Assembly: GCF_000005825.2 (NCBI RefSeq)
Contig: NC_013791.2
Span: forward strand, 3,782,001 to 3,846,000
DNA: 64,000 nucleotides
Reading direction: 5' to 3'
Source of the DNA: Alkalihalophilus pseudofirmus OF4
GTDB taxonomy: Bacteria; Bacillota; Bacilli; Bacillales; Bacillaceae_D
Shown one piece after another: positions 14,342-23,278 of this stretch. A program made the position numbers and the translations under genes. Every line of letters starts with the position of its first letter. Positions within the stretch are counted from its first letter, which is position 1. The notes beneath the pieces are model-generated. The model did not search any database. It saw nothing but the letters and a program-made list of their open reading frames with translations, and had not been told where the DNA came from.

Positions 14342-14497
14342 AAGAAAATGATGACCATTTTTAAAAGAGGTGACTTTCGATCTATTTTGTTTTCACTAGT
14401 ATTCGACTCACTGGTAAATAAAGATAGTTCCACCCTCTCTACTTAATTTGTTATAATACAAAAATGAACGTAAGTGACAATTAAAAAGAGGAGAAAG

Positions 14498-15274
14498 ATG
14501 CTTGTGTTTAATGTCATCACTCAAGCTGAAACGCTTGCCGTACTAAACTCTATTGGAGAAAATATCTTCATTGCTGATAATGACTTTCAGTTAGTATGGA
14601 TGAATAATTCTGCCCATCAACTACTAGAAGAAATAAAAGATGATATTCATATATCAAATTCACATGATGTACTAGGAAAGAATTTATCAATTTTCCATCG
14701 TAACTTTAATCACCAACAACATATATTAACGCACCATCTTCCTTATCAAACAAAAATCAAGCTTTATGGGAAGTATTCGGCCTTGCTAAAAGTGACAAGA
14801 CTTAAAAATGAGAAGAATGAAGAGGTTGGCTACATTCTTACCTGGGATGATGTAACAGCTGCTGAGGAAGAAAATGAGAGGCAAATGTCACTGTTAGAGC
14901 AGTTAAGTACCCCCATCCTCCCTATGGCTGTCGATGACTCCCTGCTAGTTCCCTTGATCGGAACGTACGATAGCAAGCGCTTTGATCTGTTGCAGCAAAA
15001 ATTATTAAACGAGTGCGCCAAACTGGGGATAGAGTACGTCGTTTTTGATTTCAGCGCTATGATAGTTGAAGATCATGAGCTAGTGGTCAATCAAATTGCA
15101 ACAATCTCAGAAACAGTGTCTTTAATTGGCGCAGAGCCTATATATGTAGGGTTTCAAATACCGCTTATAAAGAACTTAGTAGCACAAAAAGTGAAACCAG
15201 AAGCCAAAATATATGGCTCTTTCAAGCAAGCCTCGACTTATTTACTTAAGAAAACTGGTTACCTGAGCTCTTAA
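14498..15274 (+). CDS. PAS-STAS regulatory protein (RsbR-like)
   Basis: About 258 residues: a PAS domain (about 10-130, 'ENIFIADNDFQLVWMN' to 'GYILTWDDVTAAEEE'), a short helical linker, then a STAS domain (about 145-255, 'LVPLIGTYDSKRFDLLQQKL' and 'IEYVVFDFSAM'). This is the architecture of RsbR paralogues and other stressosome-type co-antagonists. The usual phospho-acceptor position after 'DFSAM' reads IVEDH, without Ser or Thr, so phosphorylation there is not expected. ATG 14498 is chosen (GAGGAG just upstream); GTG 14474 is possible. The divergent neighbour is katE, with a SigB-like promoter. A role in stress signalling is inferred. Confidence 0.72.
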   Translation: MLVFNVITQAETLAVLNSIGENIFIADNDFQLVWMNNSAHQLLEEIKDDIHISNSHDVLGKNLSIFHRNFNHQQHILTHHLPYQTKIKLYGKYSALLKVTRLKNEKNEEVGYILTWDDVTAAEEENERQMSLLEQLSTPILPMAVDDSLLVPLIGTYDSKRFDLLQQKLLNECAKLGIEYVVFDFSAMIVEDHELVVNQIATISETVSLIGAEPIYVGFQIPLIKNLVAQKVKPEAKIYGSFKQASTYLLKKTGYLSS

Positions 15275-15285
15275 AGATACTAGTA

Positions 15286-15316
15286 AAAGAAGCTGCTCCT
15301 AAGGGGCAGCTTCTTT
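15286..15316. terminator. Terminator between PAS-STAS and gvp operon end
   Basis: AAAGAAGCTGC / GCAGCTTCTTT stem with 9-nt loop. Confidence 0.85.
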
Positions 15317-15360: not shown

Positions 15361-15753
15361 CTACGAGGTATTAGTAATCCTCCCTAGAAAGAAACCCTCC
15401 ACTTCACTCAACTTTCCTCTCCATAATCTAACGCCTGTTTGTGGAATAGGATTGCTGTCTCCATAATAAATGTCAGCATGCTTTAAGTGGATATAATTCG
15501 CCTCTTCTTTTCCACTTTTTCCTGCTTCTTCACTTGCAGATGCCATCTGCTTAGATATAGCTTGAGTTATATCATCGCTATCCTCAAATCCTTCACTCAA
15601 GTCCATAAAATAATCCTTGGCAGACATCAACGTCCCTGTTATAAGACAACCTTCTATTTGTAACGTAAGGTCTAACGTAAACCCTCGGTTATTAGCTGCC
15701 TGCACGAAAAATTCAAGAATGGGATCTTTCTTTAGAACTAATTCATTCCTCAC
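15361..15753 (-). CDS. gvpU: Gas vesicle protein GvpU, short paralogue
   Basis: 130 residues, second of two GvpU-like genes and the last in the gas vesicle cluster. It keeps the family frame: 'DPILEFFVQAANNRGFTLDL', 'GTLMSAKDYF', 'IHLKHADIYYGD', 'LWRGKLSEVEGFFLGRI'. In Bacillus megaterium GvpU has been linked to vesicle clustering by phase separation. This copy has no disordered extension. The GTG start at 15753 is placed by AGGAGAT upstream. A 99-bp spacer with two 23-bp direct repeats separates it from the longer copy. Confidence 0.85.
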   Translation of the reverse strand: MRNELVLKKDPILEFFVQAANNRGFTLDLTLQIEGCLITGTLMSAKDYFMDLSEGFEDSDDITQAISKQMASASEEAGKSGKEEANYIHLKHADIYYGDSNPIPQTGVRLWRGKLSEVEGFFLGRITNTS

Positions 15754-15791
15754 CCTTCCATCTCCTCTCACCGTGCAGCCTAAGGAAGTCG

Positions 15792-15845
15792 ATATGATTC
15801 ACTCTTATACGTTTAACTCAAATATGATTAACTCTTATATGCTTT
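15792..15845. repeat. Two direct repeats between the gvpU copies
   Basis: ATATGATT(C/A)ACTCTTATA with a T-rich end occurs at 15792-15814 and 15822-15845, a period of 30 bp. The pair is flanked by GTCGAT and ATCGAC. Confidence 0.6.
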
Positions 15846-15852
15846 ATCGACT

Positions 15853-16704
15853 TTACTCTTCTTTTTTAGAGCTTTTGCTAGTTTTTTTTGTATTAGAAGA
15901 ACGTTTTGATCTCGAAGAATTCTTTGACTGATCCGATTTCTTTTCTTCTTTTTCTTTTTCTTGTTCTTGTTCCGGCTCTTCTTCTAGATCTTCCTCTTTC
16001 TCTTTCTCTTTCTCTTTCTCTTCTTCTTTCTCTTCCGTTTCTTCTTCTGCCTCTTTTTCTTCGCCAGATTCCTCATCTGTTTCGCCTTCTTCACTAGAAG
16101 GATCTGTGCTTTCTTGCTCTTGTTCTTGCTCTTGTTCTTCCTTTTGTTCTTCCTCTTCTATTCTTTCATCTTCCTCAGGTTCTTCCTCAGACTCTTTTTT
16201 TTCTTGATCTTTATCATCATTCTCTTTTCCGAATAACCCTTTAATATTCTCTTCTAGTTGGTCTAAGCGATTGTTCAGCTTATTGCTGCTAGAATCATGA
16301 CCATCCTTTTCTTGATCCGAGGTGGTTTCCCCAGCAGAAATCTTCCCTAAAAAGAAACCGTCTACTTCACTTAATTTTCCTCTCCACAACACTTCTCCCT
16401 CAGAAGGAGTAGGCTCGCGATCTCCACAATAAACTTGCGCTTCATTTAAGTGGATAAAGCTTGCAGGGGTCTCTTCATCGCCTTTTGCAGACTCCCCTGC
16501 TTGCTTTAACTGCTCACTGAGGTGATTTGAAATATCATTTCCACCTTCAAACTTTTCACTTAATAACGAAAAGTATTCTTTTGCTGAGATCATTGTACCG
16601 GTAACCATAGCTCCGCCGACATTTAACGTAATATTTAAAGAAAAATCATGCTTATTCGCTGCGTGCACGAAGTATTCTAGTATACTATCTTGTGCGTTAC
16701 TCAT
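15853..16704 (-). CDS. gvpU: Gas vesicle protein GvpU with charged disordered extension
   Basis: 283 residues, about twice the usual GvpU length. Residues 1-134 are a standard GvpU core ('SILEYFVHAANKHDFSLNI', 'GTMISAKEYF', 'VLWRGKLSEVDGFFLGKI'). Then comes a short coiled-coil segment ('NNRLDQLEENIKGLF', about 148-162), a Glu/Lys-rich low-complexity block to about 255 (dominated by Glu, Gln and Lys runs), and a basic Ser/Lys tail. The extension should be intrinsically disordered. GvpU controls vesicle clustering in B. megaterium, so the tail may tune that property. Good ribosome site GGGAGAT; follows gvpT by 21 nt. Confidence 0.88.
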   Translation of the reverse strand: MSNAQDSILEYFVHAANKHDFSLNITLNVGGAMVTGTMISAKEYFSLLSEKFEGGNDISNHLSEQLKQAGESAKGDEETPASFIHLNEAQVYCGDREPTPSEGEVLWRGKLSEVDGFFLGKISAGETTSDQEKDGHDSSSNKLNNRLDQLEENIKGLFGKENDDKDQEKKESEEEPEEDERIEEEEQKEEQEQEQEQESTDPSSEEGETDEESGEEKEAEEETEEKEEEKEKEKEKEEDLEEEPEQEQEKEKEEKKSDQSKNSSRSKRSSNTKKTSKSSKKEE

Positions 16705-16725: not shown

Positions 16726-17655
16726 TTATTTTGACGAAGTATCATCATCACTTGAGAGGGTTGTACTATTTTTAGATTTAGATTGTGATGATTTTTTTGA
16801 AGAAGTACGTTTTCTTCTTGTGTTTCCTTTTTTACTTGTTGTATTTTTTTTCGATGAATCTTTTTTGTCCTCTTCATCAGAATCCGATTCATCATCAGAC
16901 TCTTCCTCTTTTTCATCTTCGTCTGAGTCTTCTTCTTTATCCTTACTATCATCGTTCTTAGAAGACTTGTCTTCCTTGTCTTCCTTGTCTTCTTCTTCTT
17001 TCTCTTCTTCACCTGTGTTTTCTACTTCTTCTGGCTCTTCTTCCTTTGAGTCTTCCTCATCAGTTGAATCCTCATCATTTTCTTCTTCATCATTCTTTTC
17101 TTCTTCATCATTCTTTTCTTCTTTATTCTCATTTTGACCGTCTGCTAATTTTGTTAACATTTCTTCTAGTCTGCCTAGACGGTCATGAAGGTTTTCATTT
17201 TCTTCTTTCAATGCTTCATAGTCTTCATTTTTGGAACTTTCTTCTGTGCTATCAGAGTTCCCAGGAGCTGTATTTTCTTCTTCATTTGTTTCCTCATTTG
17301 TTTCTTCATTTGATGATTCTTCTTCATTATCATCCTTATCTTTTGAGTCATCGTTGTGGTTAAATAAGCTCATAGCGGAATTCTTAATCGAATCTGCCGC
17401 TTGCTTCGATTTTTCTTTTGCCATTTGGCCGAAATCTGATCCTTTGCTCTTTAGCTTGTCGCTGTCGATGCTGTCTTTAATTCTCTTTGCATTCTCAGGT
17501 GTAGCCAAATAACCAACTGTTGCTCCAATTAATCCCCCCGCAATGGAACGCTTAATAGGACTGCCGTTTGAACCTGTTTCCTCGTTCGATGTACCTTCAT
17601 TATTTGTTTGCTGATCCTCTGTTTGATTCTCTACTTTTTGTTGTTCTGCCATCAT
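16726..17655 (-). CDS. gvpT: Gas vesicle protein GvpT
   Basis: 309 residues. After a polar lead (1-33) comes a glycine-rich YtxH-like helix hairpin ('SIAGGLIGATVGYLATPENA', about 36-55), an amphipathic region, and a coiled coil 'ALKEENENLHDRLGRLEEML' (about 147-166). Residues about 175-265 are an Asp/Glu-dominated block, and the end is Ser/Lys/Arg-rich ('KKGNTRRKRTSSKKSS'). The order helix, coil, acid block, basic tail matches GvpT of B. megaterium. Its precise role in assembly is unknown. AGGAGG precedes two adjacent ATG codons, either of which may be used. Confidence 0.88.
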   Translation of the reverse strand: MMAEQQKVENQTEDQQTNNEGTSNEETGSNGSPIKRSIAGGLIGATVGYLATPENAKRIKDSIDSDKLKSKGSDFGQMAKEKSKQAADSIKNSAMSLFNHNDDSKDKDDNEEESSNEETNEETNEEENTAPGNSDSTEESSKNEDYEALKEENENLHDRLGRLEEMLTKLADGQNENKEEKNDEEEKNDEEENDEDSTDEEDSKEEEPEEVENTGEEEKEEEDKEDKEDKSSKNDDSKDKEEDSDEDEKEEESDDESDSDEEDKKDSSKKNTTSKKGNTRRKRTSSKKSSQSKSKNSTTLSSDDDTSSK

Positions 17656-17667
17656 AAAAACCTCCTA

Positions 17668-18000
17668 TTAATAATTAAACTCCGTCTGGTCTAAACGGTT
17701 TGTATTTAATTTATTTTCAAGAGACTCTAATCTCTCTTTTAACTTCTCATTTTCTTCTTCTAAAGCTTTTGTGCTGTTATTTGAGGCTTTTGAACTTAAG
17801 TAAGGGTCTGTTTCCCACCAGTCCATACCAATTTCTTTTGCTTTATCAACTGAGGCTACAATTAAACGGATTTTAATCGTTAATAGCTCCACATCAGCAA
17901 TACCAACTGTGATATCACCTGCAATCACAACGCCTTTATCTAATATTTTCTCTAACACATCTACAATCGTGCTTGACTGCATCGAGTGTTCGACTGCCAT
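17668..18000 (-). CDS. gvpJ: Gas vesicle minor shell protein GvpJ
   Basis: 110 residues with a GvpA-type core at 5-75 ('SSTIVDVLEKILDKGVVIAG', then 'ELLTIKIRLIVASVDKAKEI'), followed by 'DWWETDPYLSS' and a coiled-coil tail ('LEEENEKLKERLESLENKL', about 83-101). GvpJ is a minor shell-like protein thought to act in early assembly at the cone tips. Start at 18000, AAGGAGGACTTG upstream; a TTG two codons earlier is not favoured. Closely spaced after gvpK. Confidence 0.94.
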   Translation of the reverse strand: MAVEHSMQSSTIVDVLEKILDKGVVIAGDITVGIADVELLTIKIRLIVASVDKAKEIGMDWWETDPYLSSKASNNSTKALEEENEKLKERLESLENKLNTNRLDQTEFNY

Positions 18001-18025
18001 AATCAAGTCCTCCTTACCAATCTAG

Positions 18026-18310
18026 TTAAAGCAAACTTCCTAGGGGACCGAGGTCAATGTTTAAGTCATCGGCATCAAGGCCGAATATACTTTTTAACTC
18101 TTCCATTTTCTCTTCTAGATTCATTAAAGCTTCACCTAAATTTTCAATTTGTTCATCCGTTAACGTACCACCTTCAACACGCCGCATTGCATGCCGCTCA
18201 ACAATCTGCCGCAAGAGCTCGATGACGGTAAGAACTAGCTGTGCTAAGCCATGTTCAGCTTTATCAGGATCTAGATTAATTCTTCCATTTGTTCGGCTGG
18301 CCGGTTGCAT
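18026..18310 (-). CDS. gvpK: Gas vesicle protein GvpK
   Basis: 94 residues, largely helical, with the family pattern 'RINLDPDKAEHGLAQLVLTV', 'ELLRQIVERHAMRRVEGGTL' and 'QIENLGEALMNLEEKMEELK'. GvpK is an essential accessory protein for vesicle formation. The ATG lies within the 3' end of gvpS, giving a 35-nt overlap that suggests translational coupling. Confidence 0.93.
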   Translation of the reverse strand: MQPASRTNGRINLDPDKAEHGLAQLVLTVIELLRQIVERHAMRRVEGGTLTDEQIENLGEALMNLEEKMEELKSIFGLDADDLNIDLGPLGSLL

Positions 18311-18545
18311 CCATTAACTCCTCCCTTTGTAAATCAAAGTTTTCTGATGAAACAGGAGTATTCTGTTGTGCCTGAACGAGAGATTCTACAGAGGCAATTA
18401 AAACTCTTAAATCTAGATAAACTAGATCTACCCCCGCAATAGAGATCACTAAATCAGCTTTAATCGCTACTCCCTTATCAAGAATTACATCTAAAATATC
18501 AATCAATGCGATATCTTTGTCCTCAATTGATTCTCTTAGAGGCAT
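18276..18545 (-). CDS. gvpS: Gas vesicle minor shell protein GvpS
   Basis: 89 residues with the GvpA/J/M fold ('IALIDILDVILDKGVAIKAD', 'VDLVYLDLRVLIASVESLVQ') and a short polar tail. In the B. megaterium cluster this slot between gvpL and gvpK holds gvpS. It is expected to be a minor shell component. The 3' end overlaps gvpK by 35 nt in another frame. Confidence 0.92.
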   Translation of the reverse strand: MPLRESIEDKDIALIDILDVILDKGVAIKADLVISIAGVDLVYLDLRVLIASVESLVQAQQNTPVSSENFDLQREELMDATGQPNKWKN

Positions 18546-18558
18546 ATTGATTCCTCAC

Positions 18559-19365
18559 TTATGAAAACTGGGAAAAGTGGTAGGCTGGCCACGGACCGGA
18601 TGCGATAAACTGCCATCCCTTTTCTCCCATTTTCTTTTCATAGTCTTGAATTTGTTCTAAGAACGTTTCTACCTTTTCTTTAGGAATGAGATATACTCCA
18701 TTCCACGTCATGTTCTCTTTCTTTCCGGTTACATCCTTGTTCCAGTTTCTTTTCACTGTACCTTGCAACACATAATTGAGCAGATGATTATGGACCTCTT
18801 CACCGACACGTTCTTTTTCAGCTTCTGCTTCCTCTGCGATGACTTTATCTAGTTTTTTATTCTCAAAAAACTGCTTGCCTCTCGGTAACTCTTTGATCTC
18901 TTCTTTTCTAGCTTCCACTGCAGGGTTATTCTTTGCTACTTCTTCATGAAGCAGCTGATCATCGCAATAGATCTTAACATTCCACTCTTCGTTGCCTTTA
19001 AGAGAGCTGAACGTTTCAGCAAGTTTTATCTCGTGATCTTCAATGGTTTTCATTAAACTCTCTTCTGATTTATACAACGTACAAAATTTAAGTGGAATTG
19101 TCGTATAGCTTTTAGCTAGCTGCATCACGGTCTCATGGTGATGGAAGGCTTTTTCCTGAAGCCATTCCATATCTTGATCAACACGTTCTTTGATCTTCTC
19201 TTCTGAATACTCACTACCATCTAATTTGCAAACAACAGCACTGTGCTGCCCTATTTGGATGGGATAAAGCTCACCCTCTTGATCAAACCCTTTCATTGGT
19301 GGAAGCGGCTCGCTGCTTAATTCAGATGTTGGAATGAGCCCGTATAAATAAATTAATTGTTCCAT
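18559..19365 (-). CDS. gvpL: Gas vesicle assembly protein GvpL
   Basis: 268 residues of the GvpF/GvpL family: N-terminal ferredoxin-like domain ('IYLYGLIPTSELSSE', then 'HHHETVMQLAKSYTTIPLKF') and C-terminal domain ending 'GWQFIASGPWPAYHFSQF', the GPWP signature shared with GvpF. These proteins bind GvpA monomers and help assembly. The start at 19365 (ribosome site GGAGT, spacing 9) leaves a 5-nt gap to gvpG; a longer reading into gvpG is unsupported. Confidence 0.93.
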   Translation of the reverse strand: MEQLIYLYGLIPTSELSSEPLPPMKGFDQEGELYPIQIGQHSAVVCKLDGSEYSEEKIKERVDQDMEWLQEKAFHHHETVMQLAKSYTTIPLKFCTLYKSEESLMKTIEDHEIKLAETFSSLKGNEEWNVKIYCDDQLLHEEVAKNNPAVEARKEEIKELPRGKQFFENKKLDKVIAEEAEAEKERVGEEVHNHLLNYVLQGTVKRNWNKDVTGKKENMTWNGVYLIPKEKVETFLEQIQDYEKKMGEKGWQFIASGPWPAYHFSQFS

Positions 19366-19370
19366 CTTTC

Positions 19371-19634
19371 CTACTCCTTCTCTCTTCGCTGAGCCATCTG
19401 CTCCCACTGTTCAATCTCAAGCTGTTTAGCCACTTCATATCGAGTAAGCAGCTCTTCTTCCTTTGCTTTATAAGCTTCTTCAGGAATTTCGCCAAGTTCA
19501 TACATCATTTGGAGCTGGATCAGTTTTTGTTGAATCGTCGGCAGATCATAAAGCTCTTTATCTGCTTCTTCTTTCACTTTCTCACCGATTTTTATAACTA
19601 GGTTAATAGGGGCCGTTACCAGCTTATGAATCAT
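19371..19634 (-). CDS. gvpG: Gas vesicle protein GvpG
   Basis: 87 residues, helical and charged, with the family pattern 'LVTAPINLVIKIGEKVKEEA' followed by 'IQQKLIQLQMMYELGEIPEE'. GvpG lies between F and L in nearly every gvp cluster and interacts with them. Its ATG overlaps the gvpF TGA by one base (TGATG), so translation is likely coupled. Confidence 0.93.
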   Translation of the reverse strand: MIHKLVTAPINLVIKIGEKVKEEADKELYDLPTIQQKLIQLQMMYELGEIPEEAYKAKEEELLTRYEVAKQLEIEQWEQMAQRREKE

Positions 19635-20401
19635 CAGCTTTCTTCTACTTTCAACCTGATATTCACAAAATTATAGGCTGGCCATGGACCTGTATAATTA
19701 AAGTCCACTTTGTCATTCCACTTTTCATGAGCCTCATTAACCTTTTGATCAAATTCTTCTTCTTTATCCCGATCGACGAGAAAAGAGGCGTTTAACAGCA
19801 TCGTTTCTCCTATCGGATCATTGGCTTTTGCAGCCACTCCCGCCTTTTCTAATGGCTCATAGACCTTTTCCTTCACTTCGTTTTGCAAGGTCTTCATAAA
19901 TTGTTGAGCGGCATCTCCAATTTTAATCCGTTCATAATAACTTGCTGCTTCAGATTTCCCTTTAACAGAATGCGCCATCTTCTCTAAATTTGTATTTTCC
20001 TTCACTTTAGCTTCTAGCCATTCTTTTTTAGCAATCACCTTTAGTCCGACTTCAATTTTTCCTTTTATTTCTGGAAACAGCTTTGTAAATTGGGGATATA
20101 AATTCTCAAGTAATACCCCCACGTCTTCTGATGACTGAAATACATTACCAAAACTAACAGGAATAACTGTGTCTTTTTTGTCCATTACGACTGAAACAAC
20201 GTGTTGATGCATCATCAGATTCTCTTTGTTTGGGTGATAGATCTTCATTGGAACATCTGCTGCTACCATCGCGGCATTTTTATAACGCACTGTAAAAAGT
20301 TTTCGCTTCTCGCCTTCAATTTCTACTTCTCCAAAATCATCATCTACATCCGTCTCTATCCCGCAAAATATATACGTACCCATTTTTGTCTCTTGACTCA
20401 T
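19634..20401 (-). CDS. gvpF: Gas vesicle assembly protein GvpF
   Basis: 255 residues of the GvpF/GvpL family: 'GTYIFCGIE' at the start, a conserved 'SVVMDKKDTVIPVSFGNVF' in the N-terminal domain, and the C-terminal signature 'FNYTGPWPAYNFVNIRLK'. It is the structural paralogue of GvpL and in other systems contacts GvpA. Ribosome site is a modest AGGGG; gvpN ends 42 nt upstream. Confidence 0.94.
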   Translation of the reverse strand: MSQETKMGTYIFCGIETDVDDDFGEVEIEGEKRKLFTVRYKNAAMVAADVPMKIYHPNKENLMMHQHVVSVVMDKKDTVIPVSFGNVFQSSEDVGVLLENLYPQFTKLFPEIKGKIEVGLKVIAKKEWLEAKVKENTNLEKMAHSVKGKSEAASYYERIKIGDAAQQFMKTLQNEVKEKVYEPLEKAGVAAKANDPIGETMLLNASFLVDRDKEEEFDQKVNEAHEKWNDKVDFNYTGPWPAYNFVNIRLKVEES

Positions 20402-20443
20402 TCTTAAAAACCCCTTTATTTATGCTATTTCTATCTCCTGACC

Positions 20444-21361
20444 TTAATTAGAGACATTCATTTGTTTTAGTGCTTTCACTATTAGTTCTTCTGCTGCTTT
20501 GATTGGTTGCTCTGTTTCTATACAGCGGCTTAGTTGATGACTTAGGATGTCTAAACATAACTGCTTAAACTCCTCATTTTCTCCATCAATGGCTATGCCC
20601 TCTTCTACGACCAGTTTCGCAATCATGAGTGAAGCTCTTAAACTTGGTCCGTTCTCACCTGAACACTCATCTCTTAACCTCGAGACAAGAGTCGTAATCT
20701 TCTTTGCCTGACTCTCTTCAAGTCCATATTTACCCGCTGCAATATTCGCTTCATAGTCTTGATCTTTATAATCCACAACAATCGATATTAAGCGATCTAA
20801 TAAAGCATCCTGGGTTTTAAACACTCCGGCATATTCTTCTGGATTACTTGTGAAAATGACTCTAAAATCAGGATGAACAGGAACAAACGGTTCGGTTTTC
20901 TTTGAACCGTACAGGGGCAAGATCTTCTCTTCAAGAATGGATAAAAATAGATTGTTAGTTGTAGGCTTAGATCTTGTGAATTCATCGTAAACAAGCGTAT
21001 AACCATGTTTAACCGCTTCAAGCAGCCGTCCATCTCTCCATGTTTCTTGGACATTTTCGTCTTTTTTGTAAACAGAGCGTATATAATTATCAACGATCTT
21101 CTTACTTGTATAGCCTGTAAAACCACCAATTAAATCTTTATTATCTAACTCATGATTCCCATGAATCAGCATAACCGGACGTCTCCTCTTCTTAGCAAGG
21201 GCGAGTGCCAGAGATGTCTTCCCGGCCCCTGTTGGACCTGTGTAATGAATAGGGTAGCCTGCTTTTAAATAACGCAAGGAGCGAGTTAGCAGCTGTTTTG
21301 TGTCTTCATCTTGGATTAGAGCTTCAGTTTTTGTTTTGACCTTATCTTTTAATACAGTCAC
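20444..21361 (-). CDS. gvpN: Gas vesicle AAA+ ATPase GvpN
   Basis: 305 residues of the MoxR-like AAA+ family. Walker A 'GPTGAGKTSLALALA' (about 42-56), Walker B 'GYTLVYDEFTR' (about 124-134), sensor 1 'RVIFTSNPEEYAG', and an arginine-rich lid 'ALLDRLISIVVD'. GvpN uses ATP to help vesicle enlargement. It starts with GTG, preceded by GGAGGG at 7 nt spacing. Confidence 0.94.
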   Translation of the reverse strand: MTVLKDKVKTKTEALIQDEDTKQLLTRSLRYLKAGYPIHYTGPTGAGKTSLALALAKKRRRPVMLIHGNHELDNKDLIGGFTGYTSKKIVDNYIRSVYKKDENVQETWRDGRLLEAVKHGYTLVYDEFTRSKPTTNNLFLSILEEKILPLYGSKKTEPFVPVHPDFRVIFTSNPEEYAGVFKTQDALLDRLISIVVDYKDQDYEANIAAGKYGLEESQAKKITTLVSRLRDECSGENGPSLRASLMIAKLVVEEGIAIDGENEEFKQLCLDILSHQLSRCIETEQPIKAAEELIVKALKQMNVSN

Positions 21362-21391
21362 TAGGCATCCCTCCTACTCATTACTATTCTT

Positions 21392-21652
21392 TCATTGATC
21401 TATGGCACTTCTGTAACGCACCTCACGCCTTCTAAAAGAAGTCACTTCCTTATCCTCATTTAGAGCTACATCGTATACACCGATCATTTCGTCTTTTGCA
21501 TACTTTTTCATATATTCCTTTTCTTCAATGACTTCAACAATTAAGTGCCAGCCGCCATTCTCCGCTTCTTCAACTGCCGTTATTTTATGAAGAGGCGCAA
21601 CGTGTTCATTGAAGAAGTCAGCAACATTATTCATGATTTCTTTTATTCCCAT
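21392..21652 (-). CDS. gvpR: Gas vesicle protein GvpR (GvpO family)
   Basis: 86 residues. The sequence 'KITAVEEAENGGWHLIVEVI' followed by 'YDVALNEDKEVTSFRRREVR' is the GvpO-domain pattern, and the position between gvpB and gvpN is that of gvpR in B. megaterium. Haloarchaeal GvpO relatives are needed for vesicle production; the function of the Bacillus protein is not established. ATG 21652 has CAGGAGGG upstream. Confidence 0.87.
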   Translation of the reverse strand: MGIKEIMNNVADFFNEHVAPLHKITAVEEAENGGWHLIVEVIEEKEYMKKYAKDEMIGVYDVALNEDKEVTSFRRREVRYRSAIDQ

Positions 21653-21710
21653 AGTGCCCTCCTGCTTATCAGGCAATGTGCAGCCGACTTAAGCCGGCCG
21701 ACAACGCCAT

Positions 21711-21971
21711 TTAAATACTAAATGCAGCATTTCGTTCATTTGGCTGCTCAGGCAGCCCTTCCTCTTCTACCTCATCACGCAGGAGACCTACTGCTTCTGC
21801 ATAACGTAACCAAGTATCCACACTTGCAATAACCACACGTGCCTCAACTGTTAAAATTTCAATCCCTACTACCGAAACTCTCACAAAAGCATCAATAACA
21901 ATCCCTTTGTCTAAAATCCGGTCAATTACCTCTGCTAAACTTGAACTATCGGTACTTTTTTGAACAGCCAT
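21711..21971 (-). CDS. gvpB: Gas vesicle major shell protein GvpB (GvpA paralogue)
   Basis: 86 residues, a standard GvpA: '[20 protein letters not shown]' (helix 1, turn), '[20 protein letters not shown]' (strand 2, helix 2) and 'RYAEAVGLL'. Differs from the upstream gvpA product at residues 2-3, position 34 (Val for Leu) and the last ten. The hydrophobic ribs formed by this protein build the gas-permeable wall. Confidence 0.95.
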
Positions 21972-21991
21972 TCTTCTTTCCCCTTTCCGAA

Positions 21992-22438
21992 TTAAGAACC
22001 CATTGTCTTAATATCATTTGAAGATTTGATATCCTTTGAGCTCTTCACATCTTTATAACTTTTGATGCTTGAAACTCCTTTAATCTGGCTGACACCTTTT
22101 ATTCTTTTGTCATCTTTATCATTCTGATTTGATTTGATTTTTTCCTGAAAGTCTTCCCCGGCTTCTACTACATTGCCTATCTTATCTTTCACTTTCAGTA
22201 AGGCATCTTGTGCTTTCTCTTTACCTTCTTCTGCCTTATCGTGCAGCTTCTCTGCGCCCTCGTCTTTCGCATCTTCAAGCTTATCAGTCGCATCATCAGC
22301 CTTATCTTGGACATTTTCAACAAACTTTTCCTTTGCTTTGTCTTTGACCGTTTCTTTTATTTCATCTTTGATTGGTTCTGGAGTATATTCGACTATTTTT
22401 TTAGCCGCTTTGCCGGCAGCTTTTTTAAATGTGCCCAT
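21992..22438 (-). CDS. gvpQ: Gas vesicle protein GvpQ
   Basis: 148 residues, highly charged and mostly helical (Lys/Asp/Glu/Ala), resembling LEA-type or YtxH-like helices over residues 1-105. The C-terminus (about 113-148) is a run of near-hexad repeats: [35 protein letters not shown]. The gene occupies the gvpQ slot between gvpP and gvpB. GvpQ has no known biochemical role. Strong ribosome site GAGGAGGAA. Confidence 0.82.
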
Positions 22439-22473
22439 CGAATTCCTCCTCCTCTACTCTGAATCCATGAACG

Positions 22474-22950
22474 CTATTTCTTAGACTCTACTAAGTTGTT
22501 GAGCATTTCTTCAATTTTTTCTAAACGATCATTTAATTGTTTATTTTCTTCTTTTATTTCGTCGTATTCAGAAGACGACTGCTCTTGTGAAGAGTCTTCT
22601 TCCTTACTCTTATTTTGTTGTTCGTCTTGGTCTTGATCCTGTTCTTCATCTTGCTGTTCATTTTTTTTCTTCGGTAAAAATCCTCCGCCGTTCATATACC
22701 CGGATGCCGTTTGTCTAAAGCTGTTAATTGCTTGCTCCGTTAAAATTTCTTGAGCTGTCCGTTTTAATTCTTTTCCTGCCGACCTCATAACTTCAGACTC
22801 ACTTAAACTTTTCATTACCTTCTTGCTTGTACCTGGACTTGATAACAAACCAATTCCTGCTCCGACTACCCCGCCGATCAACGCTAGGTTCATAGAATTC
22901 GTTTGGTTGTTTTTCTCTGTGCTTTGTTTGCTCTCTTCTTTTGTTGTCAT
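22474..22950 (-). CDS. gvpP: Gas vesicle protein GvpP
   Basis: 158 residues. A polar lead is followed by a Gly-rich YtxH-like hydrophobic segment ('LALIGGVVGAGIGLLSSPGT', about 22-41), an amphipathic region, an acidic Gln/Glu/Asp-rich linker (95-130) and a coiled coil 'EIKEENKQLNDRLEKIEEML' (about 131-150). It is a shorter relative of GvpT in layout. Position between gvpA and gvpQ is that of gvpP in B. megaterium. Function unknown. Confidence 0.85.
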   Translation of the reverse strand: MTTKEESKQSTEKNNQTNSMNLALIGGVVGAGIGLLSSPGTSKKVMKSLSESEVMRSAGKELKRTAQEILTEQAINSFRQTASGYMNGGGFLPKKKNEQQDEEQDQDQDEQQNKSKEEDSSQEQSSSEYDEIKEENKQLNDRLEKIEEMLNNLVESKK

Positions 22951-23017
22951 ATCCTTTCAACCTCTTTTCTTATAAATTCGATAGATACTGTAAATAGAGT
23001 GATATCGTTATATATCT

Positions 23018-23278
23018 TTAGAAACTAAATTGCGGCTGTGTATTCTGACCTCTCTCGGGCAGGCCTTCTTCCTCCACTTCATCACGCAAAAGCCCTACTG
23101 CTTCTGCATAACGCAGCCAAGTGTCCACACTAGCTATCACAACCCTCGCTTCAACCGTTAAAATTTCAATTCCAACTAATGAGACTCTGACAAAGGCATC
23201 AATAACAATTCCTTTATCTAAGATTCTGTCAATCACTTCTGCCAGACTTGAACTATCCGTACTTTTTTGAATACTCAT
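23018..23278 (-). CDS. gvpA: Gas vesicle major shell protein GvpA
   Basis: 86 residues, first gene of the operon. The GvpA core is intact: '[20 protein letters not shown]', '[20 protein letters not shown]', '[15 protein letters not shown]'. Only its tail and three other positions differ from the second copy. It forms the vesicle wall. Ribosome site AAAGGAGTG at 8 nt spacing. Confidence 0.96.

Follow-up and report, generated by a model that had tools for sequence, protein, structure and literature searches.

A GvpU protein with a charged, probably disordered tail beside a plain copy in the gas vesicle cluster of Alkalihalophilus pseudofirmus OF4

Gas vesicles serve as ultrasound reporters. One of the proteins encoded in their gene clusters, GvpU, is reported to undergo a phase transition and to bind the shell protein at its C-terminal tail. 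In PMC10903477, GvpU and GvpT are implicated in aggregation via the C-terminus of GvpA, and gvpU and gvpT are described as exclusive to Bacillota. PMC11445434 credits clustering to GvpU and less to GvpT, reports self-interaction of GvpT with a dimer on blots, and places GvpT and GvpU in contact with GvpJ and assembly factors by split-luciferase assay, the GvpU used there being of the Priestia type. In Jazbec 2024 (PMC11223475), GvpR, GvpT and GvpU are dispensable, GvpU for vesicle formation in E. coli, and the authors were unable to confirm that GvpU affects clustering. The governing role in clustering that a preliminary description of the present locus assigned to GvpU is disputed. Literature searches on gas vesicles of alkaliphiles and pseudofirmus, and on gas vesicle clustering and phase separation in megaterium, found no paper.

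We analysed a 64-kb stretch of the A. pseudofirmus OF4 genome (the window); all coordinates are positions in the window unless a locus label is given (Table 1). The gene gvpU1 lies at the end of the gas vesicle cluster and adjoins gvpT. Its proposed identity as GvpU holds: the frame is present on the minus strand, and residues 6-122 of the product match the NCBIfam GvpU profile NF041667 over positions 1-117 of 117 with 172 bits, the curated cut-off being 70 bits. At E 0.001 this is the only NCBIfam family matched, the GvpT/GvpP model NF041669 giving no match, and no Pfam family is matched at the same threshold. GvpU1 resembles the Priestia-type GvpU (NF041667) in its core, its place after gvpT and its score above the cut-off. 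The difference is that the P. aryabhattai locus has one copy running 10 residues past the core, whereas the window has two copies, one of them with ~159 extra residues. The second copy, gvpU2, is located directly downstream of gvpU1 and stops 4 residues past the core, so the two genes do form the natural pair with and without a tail that had been proposed. The downstream copy is tailless in all three genomes of the genus that have gvpU, and the tail is therefore not a property of every GvpU in the genus. About 3.3 copies of a 15-base repeat are found between the two genes (15792-15841). A plus-strand gene at 14474-15274 converges on gvpU2, and a terminator-like hairpin of 14 pairs (15286-15316) lies between the two; this gene matches PAS weakly, under the family cut-off.

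Table 1. Features of the gas vesicle cluster in the window. The names of N, F, L, R and A come from reading and gene order; J and S were assigned from PF00741 proteins by order and reading.
Feature	Position	Strand	Basis
gvpU1, tailed copy	15853..16704	minus	283 aa; translation and NF041667 match
GvpU core, aa 6-122, predicted Sm/LSm-like fold	16339..16689	minus	NF041667, AlphaFold and structure comparison
Short coil, helix aa 139-158	16231..16290	minus	Coil profile E 1.4e-4 and AlphaFold helix, pLDDT about 75
Acidic block, aa 161-257, length variable between strains	15934..16224	minus	Charge count, tandem repeats
Basic Ser/Lys/Arg/Thr end, aa 258-283	15856..15933	minus	Charge count
gvpU2, plain copy	15361..15771	minus	136 aa, exact start codon uncertain; NF041667 157 bits
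gvpT, coil/acidic/basic layout	16726..17655	minus	309 aa; NF041669 147 bits; coil profile 48 bits
gvpJ (by order and PF00741), weaker coil near C-terminus	17668..18006	minus	Coil E 0.028, same frame in locus L001
gvpP (GvpT/GvpP family), ends in coil	22474..22950	minus	NF041669 102 bits; coil 42 bits
Rest of cluster	18026..23278	minus	Family matches: GvpK, GvpG, GvpQ, PF00741 protein in gvpS place

The anatomy of the tail is solid. It comprises about 159 residues (aa 125-283), longer than the roughly 120 first estimated, and consists of a linker (aa 125-141, net charge -4), a short coil (aa 142-160, net charge +1), an acidic block and a basic end. The acidic block has a net charge of -41 over 97 residues (56 D/E and 15 K/R, 73% charged), and contains short tandem repeats. 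The basic end has a net charge of +6 over 26 residues, with 9 K/R and 3 D/E. These segment charges and the predicted helix agree with the order given in the preliminary description, which had a coil followed by a block of the Glu/Lys/Gln type and a basic tail. In the AlphaFold model of GvpU1 the block means of pLDDT are mostly 91-97 in the core and drop to 39-57 after the helix, with low-confidence helices at residues 183-197 and 225-236. This pattern supports a short coil followed by disorder. The charge-hydropathy score points in the same direction, being -0.80 for the tail, on the disordered side, versus +0.06 for the core and +0.08 for GvpU2. The extension had been described as charged and disordered, and by these predictions it is indeed probably disordered beyond the coil.

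In a sample of the family, GvpU is found in 7 of 41 genomes. Three of the four Alkalihalophilus genomes sampled have it, each as a long copy plus a plain copy; among the other four GvpU genomes, one of another genus has the same type of pair and three have a single plain copy. The start of the tail is found in three of the four genomes of the genus. In a sample of the order the core is matched in 101 of 397 genomes, and an adjacent pair with one long frame occurs in 7 of these 101; in a sample of the phylum the GvpU cut-off is passed in 2 of 398. In a Sutcliffiella-type genus, 12 of 16 genomes match GvpU, and in 6 of them two adjacent frames are found, one of which is long (227-267 aa). Six Sutcliffiella-type genomes (G094, G129, G157, G183, G339 and G415) have a single GvpU match just over the cut-off, at 70.6-78.4 bits, and the remaining six matching genomes have similar extra genes at a large distance from their tandem pair.

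We also scanned 113 records, the window and 112 loci, with a GvpU profile built here. A GvpU frame is present in 112 of the 113 records, giving 91 distinct frames; this is a census of retrieved loci and no random sample, because many loci repeat one genome and 20 stretches were picked partly for long frames. Tandem gvpU genes occur in 10 distinct genomes, three of this genus, one of another genus of the family and six of the Sutcliffiella type. In all 10, the core is followed by 100-160 residues in the upstream copy and by 4 in the downstream one; the 81 other distinct GvpU frames all end within 11 residues past the core. Each of the 10 tails reads as a coil followed by an acidic block, with an end rich in Lys, Ser and Thr. 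Within the loci retrieved, the first copy of tandem gvpU pairs thus carries a tail that recurs and is held within lineages. The long frames of the Jeotgalibacillus type (206-214 aa) were rejected as tailed copies, as their extra length is upstream of the core and their tail measures 5 aa. GvpU-like genes, 31-35% identical to the core, are also present on plasmids of Salinivibrio (L125, 4001-4378), Enterobacter (L126, 2238-2624) and Calothrix (L127, 5001-5375), and speak against exclusivity to Bacillota as far as GvpU-like proteins are concerned. The Enterobacter gene adjoins a YafO-type toxin. No annotated gas vesicle gene besides gvpU is seen around the three genes in the stretches shown, where the gene tables are incomplete and those of Calothrix list only 'hypothetical' proteins.

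The coil relates the tail to other proteins of the vesicle machinery. We derived a coil profile from 71 GvpT/P domains, all of them from loci that lack tandem gvpU. The profile matches 10 of 10 tailed GvpU proteins (E 6e-10 to 2e-4); among the 81 others there is no match, the best having E 0.78. No shuffled tail scored as high as the real one (930-992 of 1,000 shuffles scored per tail); for GvpU1 the match covers a 12-residue stretch including LNNRLDQLEE, and 0 of 992 scored shuffles were as high. Over 6,921 distinct frames, the profile retrieved at E <=0.05 112 GvpT/P, 42 GvpJ/A-type, 10 GvpU and 8 other frames, the last being by reading cut or diverged GvpT/P. A short coil of one kind is common to GvpT and GvpP of the window and, weakly, GvpJ. 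When the coil of the window's GvpT was used as a single query against the window's genome at E 1, gvpU1 was not found; the query retrieved gvpT and gvpP, gvpJ weakly, and a single stop-containing stretch at chance level. The coil pattern of GvpT and GvpP, of the type ExLKEENxxLxDRLxxLEEML, is thus found in GvpU1 in part, by the profile and not by the single query. Each GvpU coil was compared with the GvpT of its own genome. In Sutcliffiella 18 of 24 residues agree, as do 54 of 78 bases over 26 codons; for the window's genus the residue match is 7 of 19 and the base match 30 of 54. Transfer from GvpT is therefore well supported in Sutcliffiella and only suggested in the window's genus. A literature search found no paper mentioning GvpT together with 'coiled'.

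The likeness to GvpT/GvpP (NF041669) extends beyond the coil. A short coil, an acidic stretch and a Lys/Ser/Thr-rich end follow one another in all 11 aligned GvpT proteins, four of them from single-gvpU loci; some shorter copies of the GvpT family are without the long tail. Unlike these proteins, GvpU1 has a GvpU core instead of a YtxH-like N-terminal region, and it ends in SKSSKKEE, without the TTLSSDDDTSS-type C-terminus that the 11 aligned GvpT share with small changes. A GLFGKEN stretch of the tail was rejected as a copy of the LFNKD region of GvpT, as the best E is 0.09 and 143 of 992 shuffles were as high for the window's tail; for two of the 10 tails no shuffle was as high. The best reading of the tail is that GvpU has acquired a coil/acid/basic module of the GvpT type; the match to GvpT is strong in Sutcliffiella and weak in Alkalihalophilus.

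We tentatively favour, at somewhat less than even confidence, the reading that gvpU1 encodes a GvpU core carrying this module of coil, acidic spacer and basic tip, and that the module tunes vesicle packing. The coil would allow GvpU1 to pair with itself or to dock onto GvpT, GvpP or GvpJ. The acidic block would serve as a flexible polyelectrolyte spacer, determining how far apart vesicles lie and rendering their association responsive to salt and pH, and the basic tip may bridge to the acidic blocks of neighbours. GvpU2 would provide the plain function, so that the ratio of GvpU1 to GvpU2 would tune packing. The effect of the tail on clustering is a reasoned proposal. In its favour we count the restriction of the tail to upstream copies, the coil-profile matches, the conservation of coil and basic end, and the published contacts of GvpT and GvpU. 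Against it we count the 7/19 coil match, the failure of the GvpT coil query to find gvpU1, the helix pLDDT of only about 75, the lack of the TTLSSDDDTSS-type end, the different typicality of the cores in the two kinds of pair (see below), and the null result on clustering in Jazbec 2024.

Variation between strains bears on the alternatives. The tailed copy has 160 residues past the core in the window, 148 in the second genome of the species and 137 in A. marmarensis; the tail is therefore not a one-strain artefact. DNA identity between gvpU1 of the window and of these two near relatives is 97-99.5% in the core and 93-98% in the tail. All three genomes of the genus have an identical coil, and that of the other genus is almost unchanged; the basic end is also conserved between strains, and the acidic block varies by in-frame gaps. 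It seems to us rather unlikely that the tail is an entropic brush of acidic residues holding vesicles apart, which would make GvpU1 a dispersing antagonist of a clustering GvpU2. A net charge of -41 in a block predicted to be disordered would suit such a brush, as would the plain copy beside the tailed one in 10 tandem genomes, but a brush alone needs no conserved coil or basic tip, and both are kept between strains. We hold it to be more improbable still that the tail is near-neutral low-complexity growth, produced by repeat slippage after duplication and of little function. Short tandem repeats in the acidic block, strain gaps of 3-36 bases and the weak coil match in the window's genus are in line with slippage. 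However, the gaps between the window and its two near relatives (24 and 12 bases; 30, 3, 36 and 6 bases) are all multiples of three, the coil is unchanged in the genus, 137-160 residues are retained past the core, and the same layout recurs in Sutcliffiella. Two kept anchors around a variable acidic spacer are hard to square with free drift.

A role in vesicle assembly instead of clustering, in which the common coil would dock GvpU1 on GvpJ or GvpT at growing vesicles, is quite unlikely. The related coil in 42 GvpJ/A-type frames and the split-luciferase contacts in PMC11445434 are compatible with it, but the Priestia-type GvpU of that study already contacts GvpJ, and the Priestia frame retrieved here extends only 10 residues beyond the core. 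In PMC11223475, moreover, E. coli forms vesicles without GvpU. Alkalihalophilus is associated with alkaline and salty habitats, yet a general adaptation of the tail to salty or alkaline life is very hard to credit, with at most 5 residues past the core in 10 Halobacillus loci, at most 10 in loci of Alkalihalobacillus, Pseudalkalibacillus, Alkalicoccus and Alteribacillus, and 4 in the neighbouring copy of the same cell.

The origin of the tailed copies was approached with trees and identities. The tree of the GvpU core, built on 119 columns only, rejects neither a single clade of tailed copies (AU p 0.22) nor pairs that arose within each lineage (p 0.19 and 0.13). The downstream copies form one unstarred group with support 89/50 in the tree without the longest row. 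A quick tree of GvpN, GvpF and GvpL for 62 of 74 loci places the tandem loci in two groups within one starred clade of 20 rows, which also includes 10 single-copy loci. The tailed core of the window's genome has a median identity of 63% to single-copy GvpU proteins versus 53% for GvpU2; in Sutcliffiella the plain copy has 69-70% versus 54-61% for the tailed one. The tailed core is more typical in Alkalihalophilus and more diverged in Sutcliffiella, so the two pairs may divide labour differently. Trees and identities would fit two origins of the tail and are no proof of them.

Two GvpA-type shell proteins of the window (21711-21971 and 23018-23278) have different C-terminal ends, AAFSI and PQFSF, and two GvpA-type genes are present in 12 of the 14 single-gvpU loci listed as well. 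A pairing of two GvpU copies with two GvpA C-terminal ends was rejected, as the 22 loci listed reveal no tandem-specific pattern. Four loci of Cytobacillus and Metabacillus type (L041, L042, L045 and L065) have two gvpT-family genes before gvpU, with a short frame of 162-202 aa and a long one of 662-827 aa, the long frame of L045 being split by masked bases. Such pairs suggest that tail growth after duplication may affect gvpT too.

Foldseek and VIA were used to compare structure models of both GvpU copies with solved structures. Foldseek gave no match with E <0.001 for either model; chains of snRNP particles rank first, with probabilities of 0.87 and 0.99 (E 0.11 and 0.024), and proteasome subunits and other unrelated proteins also appear in its lists with low probability. 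All 50 rows listed by VIA for each model are titled as Sm/LSm proteins or particles containing them, with best Z scores of 7.8 and 7.4 over 58-73 aligned residues, where a Z below 8 may reflect a common arrangement only. NatC, which has an LSm-like small subunit, is among these rows. Invariant residues of GvpU are G31, G36 and W107-R108-G109, which we take to be placed like the G-x4-G and RG of the Sm motif. The GvpU core differs from Sm/LSm proteins in a helical insertion between strands 2 and 3, in what is a single-chain prediction only. LSM is not among the 25 listed of 38 Pfam families found at E <=10 for 42 GvpU members; the matches are scattered and weak, and the strongest, GreA_GreB_N with E 4e-4, occurs in 5 of the 42. 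A search against the sequences of solved structures at E 1 gave no match, and one of the literature on gas vesicles and Sm-like proteins found, by title, no paper about GvpU. We regard the Sm/LSm-like fold of the GvpU core as a lead from structure prediction. Disordered tails of Sm-type proteins help assemble RNA granules, and tailed rings of GvpU could be a parallel. A picture in which Sm/LSm-like GvpU rings sit on the vesicle surface, swappable GvpT-derived tails radiate from them, and tailed and tailless rings set the packing is speculative and in our judgement doubtful.

That GvpU clusters gas vesicles has been claimed only recently and is disputed. With both a plain and a tailed copy in one cell, the coil, the acidic block and the basic tip can readily be tested one by one. 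The Sm-like prediction offers a structural guess for the self-association of GvpU, and the coil common to GvpT, GvpP, GvpJ and the tailed GvpU suggests a common docking motif in the vesicle machinery.
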